Assembly (NCBI RefSeq): GCF_002305875.1 | Contig: NZ_CP022098.1 | Location: 1,798,001-1,862,000 of the forward strand | DNA from: Cystobacter fuscus | Lineage (GTDB): Bacteria > Myxococcota > Myxococcia > Myxococcales > Myxococcaceae | Direction of reading: 5' to 3' | DNA length: 64,000 bases | Shown here: one piece after another, positions 10,839 to 28,380 of the stretch | How positions within the stretch are numbered: position 1 is the stretch's first letter | Layout of the letters: each line of letters begins with the position of its first letter | The notes under the pieces: model-generated | What the model was told of the DNA's origin: nothing | Database searches by the model: none | The model's input: only the letters and a program-made list of their open reading frames with translations | Translations under genes and position numbers: made by a program

Positions 10839-12326
10839 ATGGGGTCGTCAGAGGAAGTGGATCCACTTGCCGAGCTACGGGAGGGGCAGGGCTCGGACGC
10901 GGAGGCGGCCGCCACGGCCGCGCCTCCTCCGCTCCCCCCGCGCCGGGCGTCGGTGGCGCTCCGGCCCGCGATGACCCTGCCCGCCGTGCGCATGCCCACG
11001 CGCCCCTCGGCCTCGACGGCCGCGGCGGACCCTTTCGGTGAGCCCACCGAGCCTTCCGCTCCCCCCGAGGGCTCCCTCCCGGAGCGGCTGGACCATTTCC
11101 GCACGGTGCTGCGGCAGAAGGTGGAGACGCTCCAGCGCGCCCGGACCCTGTACGCGGAGCGGGAGGCGGAGTTGCGCACGGTGCGCGTCTCCGAGACCAC
11201 GCTGCGCGGCCAGCTGGTGGAGGCCCAGGGGCAGCTCAAGGCGCGCCCGGTCCAGAAGGAGTCCGCGGCGGCGCTCTCGCGCGAGTCGGCGCGCGCGGAG
11301 GTGGCCGAGGCCCGGGTGGCGCGGCTCGAGGCCGAGCTGCTCCAGGTGGAGGAGGACCGCAAGGATCTCTCGCGCTCGCTCGCCGACGTGGAAGCGGAGC
11401 TGGCGCGGCTGTCGGACGAGCTGGCTCGGGAGCGGGAGTCGCGCGGCGCGCTCGCCGAGGAGCTCATCGGGGCGAAGGAGGCGCTGTCGCTCGCGCAGGA
11501 CCGGGTGTCGGAGCTGGTGACCGAGCACCTCGAGACGCAAGGCGCGCTGGAGGCCGTCCGGGACGAGTACCAGGCCACCCTGGCCGAGCTGGAGCAGACC
11601 ACGGAGCGGCTGCGGGAGGCCGAGCGGGAGCGGGAGCTCGCCGCGGCGGAGCGCACGGGGTTGTCGGTGCGCGTGGGGCAGCTGGAGTCGCTGCTCTCGG
11701 ATGCCGAGTGGTCGAACAACTCGCTGGAAGAGGTGCGCGCGCACACCCTGGAGGTGGAAGCCGAGCGCGATGGGGCGCTGGCCGAGAGCGGGGATCTCTC
11801 CGAGAAGCTGGCGTTGGCGGAGGCGGAGGTGGAGCGGCTGCGCGAGCGGATGGAGTCGGAAGTGGCCGCGCTGGGCGAGGTGGTGGAGTCCGCCGAGGCG
11901 AACGTGGCGCGGCTGGAGGAAGAGCTGCGCACGGTGACGGCGGACCGGCAGGATCTCTCGCGCGCGCTGGCCGAGGTCGAGGCGGAGCTGGAGTCGCTCC
12001 GGAGCGCGAAGCAGGCAGCGCCCGAAGAAGACGAGGCGCGGGAGGAGGGCGCCGAGAGCCGGGCGCTCGAGGCCGAGGCCCAGGCGGAGCGGCTGCGCCA
12101 GCGGGTGAAGACGCTGGAGGTCGCGCTGGAGGGGGCGCGGCGCAAGAACCCGGCCCCGGCGCCGGACGCCGAGCTGCTCGCCGAACGCGACCAGCTCCGG
12201 GAGGACGTCGCCTCGATGAAGCGCAAGCTGATGGCGGCGGAGCTGGCGCTGGAGACGGCGGCCAGCCACAAGATGAAGGTGGCGCGACTGGAGGCGGAGC
12301 TCGCGCAACTGCGGAAGGCGAAGTAG
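10839..12326 (+). CDS. large coiled-coil protein of unknown function
   Basis: 495 residues. The first 85 are Pro/Ala/Ser-rich and probably disordered. From about residue 85 to the end the sequence is a continuous heptad-patterned coiled coil rich in Glu, Arg, Ala and Leu (for example VARLEAELLQVEEDRKDLSR, echoed later as VARLEEELRTVTADRQDLSR). The repeat of this block about 200 residues apart suggests internal duplication. No catalytic motif or membrane segment is seen. The stop lies 4 bases before hemW, so the two are probably cotranscribed, but no functional link is evident. I chose the ATG at 10839, past the stop region of the divergent gene; an upstream start is not excluded. A structural or scaffolding role is inference. 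Confidence 0.72.
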   Translation: MGSSEEVDPLAELREGQGSDAEAAATAAPPPLPPRRASVALRPAMTLPAVRMPTRPSASTAAADPFGEPTEPSAPPEGSLPERLDHFRTVLRQKVETLQRARTLYAEREAELRTVRVSETTLRGQLVEAQGQLKARPVQKESAAALSRESARAEVAEARVARLEAELLQVEEDRKDLSRSLADVEAELARLSDELARERESRGALAEELIGAKEALSLAQDRVSELVTEHLETQGALEAVRDEYQATLAELEQTTERLREAERERELAAAERTGLSVRVGQLESLLSDAEWSNNSLEEVRAHTLEVEAERDGALAESGDLSEKLALAEAEVERLRERMESEVAALGEVVESAEANVARLEEELRTVTADRQDLSRALAEVEAELESLRSAKQAAPEEDEAREEGAESRALEAEAQAERLRQRVKTLEVALEGARRKNPAPAPDAELLAERDQLREDVASMKRKLMAAELALETAASHKMKVARLEAELAQLRKAK

Positions 12327-26457: not shown

Positions 26458-26952
26458 TCAGATGCTGGGGGGCTCGACCGGGGGCGGGATCTGGACGCCA
26501 GGGGTCTGGCCGCCTTCCAGGTTGACCGGACCCTCGCCCGGGGCCGACTCGAACTTGTCCTGGAAGAACTCCTTGCCCGGCTGGCCCTTGCCCTCCTTGA
26601 GCTGCTTGACCGCATCCATCAGGGCCTGGAGCAGCTGCTCGATGCCCTGCTTGCCCTCGGCGCCCTCGGGTCCACCGGCGCCCTCGGGGCCACCAGCGCC
26701 CTCCTTGCCACCGGCACCCTCCTTGCCACCAGCGCCCTCCTTGCCACCCAGCGCGGCCTTCAGCTGCTCGATGAGCTGCTTGAGCTGCTGCGGATCGATG
26801 CCCAGCTTCTGCGCGAGCTGCTCGATGGCCTTCTGGTCACCCTGCAGCGCCTTGCCCAGCAGCTGCGCCTCGGGCGTCTGCTGCGTGTTGCCGGTCTCGG
26901 GGGTGGTGGGGGTGTAGATATTGCCGCGGGGACCAACGCCAGAAACGCCCAT
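26458..26952 (-). CDS. small Gly/Gln-rich repeat protein, unknown function
   Basis: 164 residues, no Cys, no signal peptide. Residues 25-68 are Gln-rich amphipathic helix (AIEQLAQKLGIDPQQLKQLIEQL). Then come five near-identical 6-residue units GGKEGA/GGPEGA, a second helix (GIEQLLQALMDAVKQLKEG), and a Pro-rich tail. The 18-bp DNA repeats for the units lie at about 26660-26750. The composition (Gly/Gln-rich, heat-stable-looking, Cys-free) superficially recalls harpins, but I see no specific signature. Upstream is an exact-spacing sigma-54 promoter and two tandem palindromes, so expression is probably activator-dependent. It is transcribed alone; the plus-strand neighbour converges on it. Confidence 0.7.
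   Translation of the reverse strand: MGVSGVGPRGNIYTPTTPETGNTQQTPEAQLLGKALQGDQKAIEQLAQKLGIDPQQLKQLIEQLKAALGGKEGAGGKEGAGGKEGAGGPEGAGGPEGAEGKQGIEQLLQALMDAVKQLKEGKGQPGKEFFQDKFESAPGEGPVNLEGGQTPGVQIPPPVEPPSI
26660..26750 (-). repeat. 18-bp tandem repeats encoding GGKEGA/GGPEGA
   Basis: About five consecutive 18-bp units, differing mainly at the Lys/Pro codon, lie inside the small Gly/Gln-rich gene. The length is a multiple of three, so copy-number change would keep the frame. Confidence 0.8.
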
Positions 26953-27020
26953 GGTATGCCTCGTGTGCTAGGGGGGAAGGGGACTTCTCGACCACCGTTC
27001 TCGGTGACGAGGGAGACCAT

Positions 27021-27036
27021 AGCAGGGCGTGTGCCA
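27021..27036 (-). promoter_or_regulatory. sigma-54 (RpoN) type promoter
   Basis: On the minus strand the sequence TGGCACACGCCCTGCT has the -24 element TGGCAC and the -12 element TGC, with the GG and GC pairs separated by the required 10 bases. It lies about 70 bases before the ATG of the Gly/Gln-rich protein gene and points to it. Confidence 0.7.
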
Positions 27037-27134
27037 ATCCCCCAAAGCCCCCTCGAAATGCGTAACCCCTTGAAATGACGTGAGGGCCGAGGGCGCCCTG
27101 GTGACTGCCGTTCTGGAGGAGATGTCGGACTCCT

Positions 27135-27170
27135 GGTGACGTCTGTCATCCCCTGGTGACGTCTGTCACC
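27135..27170 (-). promoter_or_regulatory. two tandem palindromic activator-type sites
   Basis: GGTGACGTCTGTCACC (27155-27170) is a perfect 6-4-6 inverted repeat. GGTGACGTCTGTCATC (27135-27150) is the same with one change. Their centres are 20 bases apart, nearly two helical turns. They lie about 100-150 bases upstream of the sigma-54 promoter, the usual place for an enhancer-binding protein. Confidence 0.6.
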
Positions 27171-27192: not shown

Positions 27193-28380
27193 CTAGGGCT
27201 TCAGGGCGGTGACGAAGCGCGCCTTGCCGCCCTCCACCTTGAGGATCACCGCCTGCTTCACCGCGTCACGGTTGGCGTCCAGGGTGATGTTGCCGCCCAC
27301 GCCGGGGAAGTCGCGGGTGGCCGCGATCGCGTCGCGCAGGGCGGGGCCCGACAGATTCGGCGCGCGCTTCATCGCGTCGATGGCCAGCCGCGCGGCGTCA
27401 TAGGCGAGCGCCCCCACGCTGTCGGGCACCTGGCCGTAGGCGGCCTTGTAGCGGGCGATGAACGCCTGGAGCTGCGGATCCGGGTTCTCCTCCGAGTAGT
27501 GGTTGGAGTAGTAGCTGCCCTCGATCGCCTCGCCCCCCAGCTCGAAGAGGCGGGCGGAGTCCCAGCCATCTCCGCCGAGCAGGGGCAGGGTCAGCCCCAG
27601 CTCCCGCGCCTGACGGGCGATGATGCCCATGTCGGTGTAGTACCCGGGCACGAAGAGCCCCTCGGGCCGGGTCTTCTTGAGCGTGGTGAGCTGGGCGCGG
27701 AAGTCCGTATCTCCCTTGGAGTAGCTCTCGGTGGCCACCACGCTGCCGCCCAGCTCGGTGAACTTCCGGCGGAACTCGTCCGACAGGCCCACCGAGTACG
27801 CGCTCTTGTTGTCCTGGAGCACCGCCACGCGATTGAGGTGCAGATGGTCATGGGCGAACCGGGCCATCACCTCGCCCTGGAACGGATCGATGAAGCAGAC
27901 GCGGAAGATGTAGTCGCCCTTCTTCGTGACGGCGGGGTTGGTGGAGGTGGGGGTGATCATCGGCACCCCGGCCGCCTGCGCCTTGTCCGCCATGGCCATC
28001 GAGTTGGACGAGGCGGCCTCGCCGAGGATCACCACCACGTGGTCCTGGCTGATGAGGCGCGCGGCCGCCTGGGCCGCCTCCTCGGGCTTGCCCTGGCTGT
28101 CATAGACACGCAGCGCCAACGGGCGGCCCTTCACCCCGCCCGCGGCATTGGCGTCCTGGAGGGCCATGGAAATGCCCTGGCGCGCGGAGAGGCCGAAGGT
28201 GGCCTCGCTGCCGGTGAGGCTGCCCACCTGTCCCACGAGGATGGGCGTGGAGTCCGAGGGGGTTGGCTTCGAGGCCTCGGCGGGTGTGGCGGCGGGAGGC
28301 GCGGCGGGCGGTGCCTTCTTCTCACAGGCGGCCACGAGCACGGCGAGCGCGGTGAGCAGCAATGACGGGGTGCGGCGCAT
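27193..28380 (-). CDS. branched-chain amino acid-type ABC transporter substrate-binding lipoprotein
   Basis: 395 residues. The N-terminus MRRTPSLLLTALAVLVAAC is a lipoprotein signal with Cys19 as lipid site, followed by a Pro/Ala linker. The mature domain is a Leu/Ile/Val-binding type periplasmic protein (type I fold): ILVGQVGSLTGSEATFGLSARQGISMALQDANAAGG, AAARLISQDHVVVILGEAASSNSMAMADKAQAAGVPMITPTSTNP, and FVPGYYTDMGIIARQARELGLTLPLLGGDGW. The ligand is not predictable from this. No permease or ATPase gene lies next to it, so it may serve transporter genes elsewhere or a sensor. Start: ATG at 28380, the only one giving a proper lipoprotein signal. Confidence 0.88.
   Translation of the reverse strand: MRRTPSLLLTALAVLVAACEKKAPPAAPPAATPAEASKPTPSDSTPILVGQVGSLTGSEATFGLSARQGISMALQDANAAGGVKGRPLALRVYDSQGKPEEAAQAAARLISQDHVVVILGEAASSNSMAMADKAQAAGVPMITPTSTNPAVTKKGDYIFRVCFIDPFQGEVMARFAHDHLHLNRVAVLQDNKSAYSVGLSDEFRRKFTELGGSVVATESYSKGDTDFRAQLTTLKKTRPEGLFVPGYYTDMGIIARQARELGLTLPLLGGDGWDSARLFELGGEAIEGSYYSNHYSEENPDPQLQAFIARYKAAYGQVPDSVGALAYDAARLAIDAMKRAPNLSGPALRDAIAATRDFPGVGGNITLDANRDAVKQAVILKVEGGKARFVTALKP

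Follow-up and report, generated by a model that had tools for sequence, protein, structure and literature searches.

A sigma-54 enhancer-type promoter before a small glycine-rich protein gene of Cystobacter fuscus and its candidate palindrome regulon

The window gene and its promoter

The stretch of DNA analysed here, a 64-kb window (G000:C1:1798001-1862000) of the 12.35-Mb, single-contig genome of the myxobacterium Cystobacter fuscus, contains a reverse-strand gene for a 164-residue protein, preceded by a putative sigma-54 promoter with palindromic upstream sites (Table 1). The product, hereafter the window protein, lacks cysteine and a signal peptide, is acidic (isoelectric point 4.8), consists of 20% glycine and 12% glutamine, and carries three GGKEGA and two GGPEGA repeats as well as a proline-rich tail. 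An earlier interpretation made from the letters of the window (the sequence-only reading) had highlighted a Cys-free, Gly/Gln-rich protein with GGKEGA units. Composition and repeats stand, whereas GGKEGA as the key feature was rejected, since the repeat is poorly conserved between orthologs and the alignment retains two helical segments instead. The GGKEGA/GGPEGA repeat lies between these helices (residues ~27-69 and ~99-119) in a low-confidence predicted structure (mean predicted local distance difference test, pLDDT, 59) that was used for helix positions only. Searches of the window protein against Pfam and NCBIfam gave chance-level matches only, with no family and no harpin model. Orthologs occur in just two congeners, at 86% and 73% identity, and a search for related loci with the window protein returned no relatives because the family is confined to the genus. 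Downstream, the window gene faces a convergent gene, and its upstream neighbour, which runs in the same direction, ends at 27193; by this layout the promoter serves a single gene, as had been proposed, and the predicted transcript is monocistronic. Neither a sigma-70-like promoter nor a terminator was found in the region.

The earlier description of a -24/-12 element with exact spacing and of two 6-4-6 palindromes 20 bases apart holds at the positions listed in Table 1. No site in the 64-kb window other than this -24/-12 element matches TGGCACN5YTGCW without a mismatch. The element predicts a transcription start near 27010, and the two palindromes, separated by 20 bp from start to start, lie upstream, at 98-134 bp from the -24 end. 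The claim of a complete control region for an enhancer-binding protein (EBP) was borne out and can be extended by two elements that had been missed, a third palindrome and a site resembling that of integration host factor (IHF). The palindrome spacings are 35 and 20 bp, and a triple with spacings of 20 and 35-37 bp recurs at other promoters of the regulon described below. The IHF consensus, with at most one mismatch, is found in 23 of 60 homologous spacers (0.4 expected from shuffled spacers), and its positions in these 60 same-type promoters fall mainly at distances of 14, 26-28 and 38-39 bp from the -24 element on its upstream side; such putative IHF sites are phased on one helix face. Conservation in orthologous upstream regions had been set beforehand as the point on which the sequence-only reading would stand or fall, and the palindromes, the half-site, the IHF-like site and the -24/-12 element are all unchanged among the three species that carry the gene, while the protein itself has drifted to the identities given above. 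The sequence thus combines a near-consensus GG-N10-GC -24/-12 element, two to three putative GGTGACN4GTCACC activator sites (27100-27170) and, between them, an IHF-like site that may bend the DNA; assignment of the region as a sigma-54 enhancer-type promoter is well supported.

Table 1. Coordinates of the window gene, its predicted promoter elements, the candidate activator and the tagged secretion-cluster protein
Feature	Position	Strand	Remarks
-24/-12 sigma-54 promoter element, TGGCACACGCCCTGCT	27021-27036	-	zero mismatches; kept in 3 species
Putative upstream activator palindrome 1, GGTGACGTCTGTCACC	27155-27170	-	perfect GGTGACN4GTCACC; kept in 3 species
Putative upstream activator palindrome 2, GGTGACGTCTGTCATC	27135-27150	-	one mismatch; kept in 3 species
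Third palindrome, half-degenerate	27100-27115	-	GGTGAC half on + / GTCACC on - intact; direct reading
IHF-like site, TTTCAAGGGGTTA	27063-27075	-	one mismatch to WATCAANNNNTTR; 26 bp upstream of -24 element
Window gene, open reading frame, 164 aa	26458-26952	-	open reading frame reading; orthologs in two congeners
FHA-domain sigma-54 activator (EBP)	G000:C1:51089-52468		beside first palindrome cluster (C1:44.9-48.7 kb)
p203, 203 aa, encoded within the type III secretion cluster	L057:10352-10963		DGFE/DSFE/DAFE tag conserved across genera

Spread of the palindrome and the candidate activator

The genome scan for GGTGACN4GTCACC proposed in the sequence-only reading revealed both a regulon and a probable activator. 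With the reversed palindrome or pattern as control, the exact palindrome is present in 17 copies in the source genome (control, 0) and in 14-26 copies in congeners (control, 0-2), and its combination with a -24/-12 element at 95-125 bp gives 7 matches in the source genome against 1. Among 96 genomes of the family, paired palindromes are matched 38 times (control, 0; 5 of 26 genera), and the composite of palindrome, 64-94 bp and -24/-12 element is matched 168 times in 49 genomes (control, 2); three of the latter genomes (G009, G012 and G047) lack the EBP described below and contribute one match each, which may be chance. The set in the source genome comprises two promoters at C1:44.9-48.7 kb, the window promoter, and promoters at 3.903, 4.982, 8.196, 10.282, 10.494, 11.641 and 11.980 Mb, of which the one at 10.282 Mb has a weaker -24/-12 element (TGGCCTCTTTCTTGCT). 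Isolated perfect palindromes within coding genes (L027, L028, L029 and L031) have no -24/-12 element and were left out. Membership of the window promoter in a palindrome regulon spread over the Cystobacterineae is thus well supported by these patterns.

A candidate for the activator is encoded beside the first palindrome cluster. This EBP contains FHA (PF00498), sigma-54 activation (PF00158) and Fis-type helix-turn-helix (PF02954) domains, a GAFTGA loop is visible in its sequence, and its gene is preceded by that of a Ser/Thr kinase; in other genera, too, the kinase-EBP unit adjoins palindrome promoters. A laboratory Myxococcus has a 76% ortholog of the EBP. The EBP subfamily is present in 61 of the 96 genomes, and none of the 26 that have paired palindromes is without it (Fisher p = 7e-7, an optimistic value as kinship among genomes is ignored). 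Furthermore, of 37 paired sites, 12 are found no more than 85 bp from a gene of the subfamily, where uniform placement would give 0.01, and 16 within 5 kb. Because of the complete co-occurrence and the close adjacency, one FHA-EBP subfamily probably switches on the palindrome regulon. Alternatively, the palindromes might be bound by another regulator, e.g. a repressor or a different EBP, with the neighbouring FHA-EBP as target or bystander. The subfamily has several EBP paralogs per genome, and many regulators that act as dimers could bind a perfect palindrome of 16 bp, but the sites show an activator layout, 63-145 bp upstream of -24/-12 elements with a phased IHF-like site, and the 12 adjoining sites come from genomes of two genera and from two different loci with different EBP paralogs, so that this alternative is considered unlikely. 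The kinase-EBP cluster of locus L024 also encodes a protein (L024:10894-12159) with homologs in 38 of the 96 genomes, whose N-terminus is disordered and whose C-terminal half is helical in a model of partial confidence. Its assignment as a type III secretion gatekeeper (SctW) was dropped, as neither families nor sequences nor folds gave a match, and it is kept as a neutral marker only.

Regulon products and a possible export route

The proteins encoded downstream of the palindrome promoters, with open reading frames at related loci called by GC frame, typically start with M-x-I-S-x-x-R-S-S and have an N-terminal region of ~50 residues rich in Ser, Thr and Pro. Signal peptides are few, and 37 of 59 proteins lack cysteine. 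Pfam domains include M4 thermolysin, M91 effector protease, calpain C2, transglutaminase, SLT, LysM-SLT lytic transglycosylase and thaumatin, several members thus combining an effector-type catalytic domain with the lack of a Sec signal; in the window protein, unlike in these, no such domain was found. L033 and L066 match the M91 family (2e-12 and 1.5e-16), and L033 additionally shows a weak match to the NCBIfam model XopG/HopH (4.6e-5, below the curated cut-off). Most of the controlled genes look like secreted enzymes for attack on other cells. Regulon content varies by lineage. Apart from these enzymes, one regulon protein (L024:4688-6730, reverse strand) has four long internal repeats with weak EF-hand matches, and further EF-hand-like repeat proteins are encoded behind paired palindromes in the g19 genomes.

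The sequence-only reading had leaned towards development, for which no evidence was found. Since the targets of the co-regulated enzymes are proteins, peptidoglycan or other polymers, and since an M91/XopG-type effector is among them, the regulon points to predation. In the developmental alternative, a sigma-54/FHA-EBP regulon would serve the assembly of fruiting bodies or spores; the window protein would be a part of the structure or matrix, and the cell's own wall would be remodelled by the enzymes. Lytic transglycosylases and transglutaminases could indeed act on self, and FHA-EBPs of Myxococcus xanthus are linked to fruiting body development by the title of one study (Jelsbak et al. 2005, cited in PMC6971385). 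However, export better accounts for the M91 (XopG/HopH-like), calpain, M4 and thaumatin domains in proteins that lack a signal peptide and for the tag that the regulon has in common with a secretion-cluster protein (see below), and the lineage-variable content is unlike that of developmental core genes; a developmental role is therefore judged improbable.

The tag in question, D[GSAKT]F[DES], occurs 15 times in 30 distinct regulon proteins (half), against 2.9 expected from neighbouring genes, a contrast that is conservative because the background held unlisted regulon-like members. In the 9-Mb g19 genomes, DSFE- and DGFD-tagged genes flank the kinase-EBP locus, and the DGFD gene is preceded by palindrome and -24/-12 element. 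The window protein carries a degenerate DxFE version (FQDKFES, residues ~130-136), and tagged helical regulon members of similar size are encoded in other genera (L168 and L174). The source genome also possesses a type III secretion system (T3SS) cluster with SctN, SctQ, SctU, SctV and SycD-type chaperones, as well as a second SctV locus. BLAST comparison of regulon proteins with the T3SS cluster revealed no convincing homology, and the short tag alone is common to both: it is found in p203. Between most genera the orthologs of p203 share only 36-59% identity, yet they keep KDGFES, KDSFES, KDAFET or SDGFES in a disordered stretch that matches the tag of the regulon proteins. The tag common to p203 and the regulon, together with the tagged flanks in g19 genomes, suggests a link to secretion. 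Within the same cluster, two identical tandem 73-aa open reading frames of needle-subunit size (L057:11110-11331 and 11599-11820; G000:C1:3.321 Mb) have homologs in g1, g3, g5, g7 and g19 genomes; the Myxococcus system has been called needleless. An FHA-like protein (L057:17407-18501, reverse strand) is encoded next to SctV.

A proposed predation-effector regulon and its place among known systems

Taken together, the preferred explanation, held at a probability of about 0.62, is a predation-effector regulon under FHA-EBP control in which the window protein acts as a harpin-like helper. Contact with prey or a surface signal would change the activity of the Ser/Thr kinase, recognition of a phosphopeptide by the FHA domain would activate the EBP, and EBP oligomers on the palindromes, going by the anatomy of the promoter, could reach RNA polymerase-sigma54 through an IHF-bent loop, so that scattered effector-like genes would be produced together. 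The window product, a small non-enzymatic member, would most likely be exported and serve as a structural or harpin-like aid in delivering the enzymatic members, for which the T3SS-like predation apparatus of myxobacteria is a possible route. Sequence supports the steps up to the regulon, while the signal, binding of the EBP to its sites, the export route, and the secretion and function of the window protein and the other products are inferred.

Several observations weigh against this explanation. The window gene is present in just 3 of the 96 genomes and the tag of its product is degenerate (DKFE; DKYE in one ortholog). Two alpha-lytic-type proteases of the regulon (L081 and L083) begin with a signal-peptide-like stretch, and L030 resembles a cytoplasmic regulator. 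The palindrome is absent from both T3SS loci of the source genome, and SctV marks a T3SS in 94 of the 96 genomes, a near-universal presence by which co-occurrence cannot tie the T3SS to the regulon. A sharper version is tentative: the regulon would supply the effectors of the T3SS-like predation machine of myxobacteria, the disordered N-terminal region of these substrates would bear a new signal for sorting or docking, (Q/T)D(G/S)F(D/E), to be read by p203, which has the same tag, or by its partners, and the window protein would assist translocation without being an enzyme. With the regulon accepted as real, the window protein might also stay in the cytoplasm, e.g. as a chaperone or assembly factor, as its small size, helical and acidic character, degenerate tag and lack of an enzymatic domain and signal peptide would permit; here, the combination of Gly-repeat and Pro-rich tail is unusual for a chaperone and the similar-sized tagged proteins L168 and L174 belong to the regulon in other genera, making a cytoplasmic role somewhat doubtful.

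Myxobacteria kill and lyse prey on contact, and according to the portion of the published account considered here, a needleless T3SS-like complex of Myxococcus (T3SS*) is needed for prey lysis, with effectors invoked but left unnamed in that portion (PMC12075869). If the predation-effector explanation is true, one DNA signature picks effector-like enzymes and their probable master activator out of whole genomes, which would yield predation effectors for testing in five genera, Myxococcus-sized genomes among them, and would tie phosphorylation signalling (kinase-FHA-EBP) to weapon production. No binding site, regulon or effector link for the GGTGACN4GTCACC palindrome was found in the literature searched.

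Among known systems, the FHA-EBPs and sigma-54 regulon of Myxococcus xanthus share the arrangement of FHA, AAA+ and Fis-type helix-turn-helix activators acting at sigma-54 promoters and differ in that they were reportedly studied in the context of fruiting body development. Harpins of plant-pathogen T3SSs (HrpZ, HrpN and Hpa1) are small, acidic, non-enzymatic, Gly/Gln-rich and Cys-free, and in some pathogens expression of the hrp genes depends on sigma-54. The window protein is likewise Gly-rich, Cys-free, small, acidic and non-enzymatic, but because it matches no harpin model in Pfam or NCBIfam it is not filed as a harpin. The T3SS* and Kil (Tad) predation apparatus of Myxococcus (PMC12075869) belongs to the same lineage, and a Myxo T3SS is described as early-branching (PMC3459982). 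This genome, too, has a T3SS cluster, which includes a protein bearing the regulon tag, whereas its machinery genes lack palindromes. Finally, Cystobacter fuscus encodes an AvrRxo1 homolog that is active in plants (PMC4938570), and L033 and L066 resemble type III effectors of the M91/XopG-HopH-AvrPtoH group by their Pfam M91 matches.
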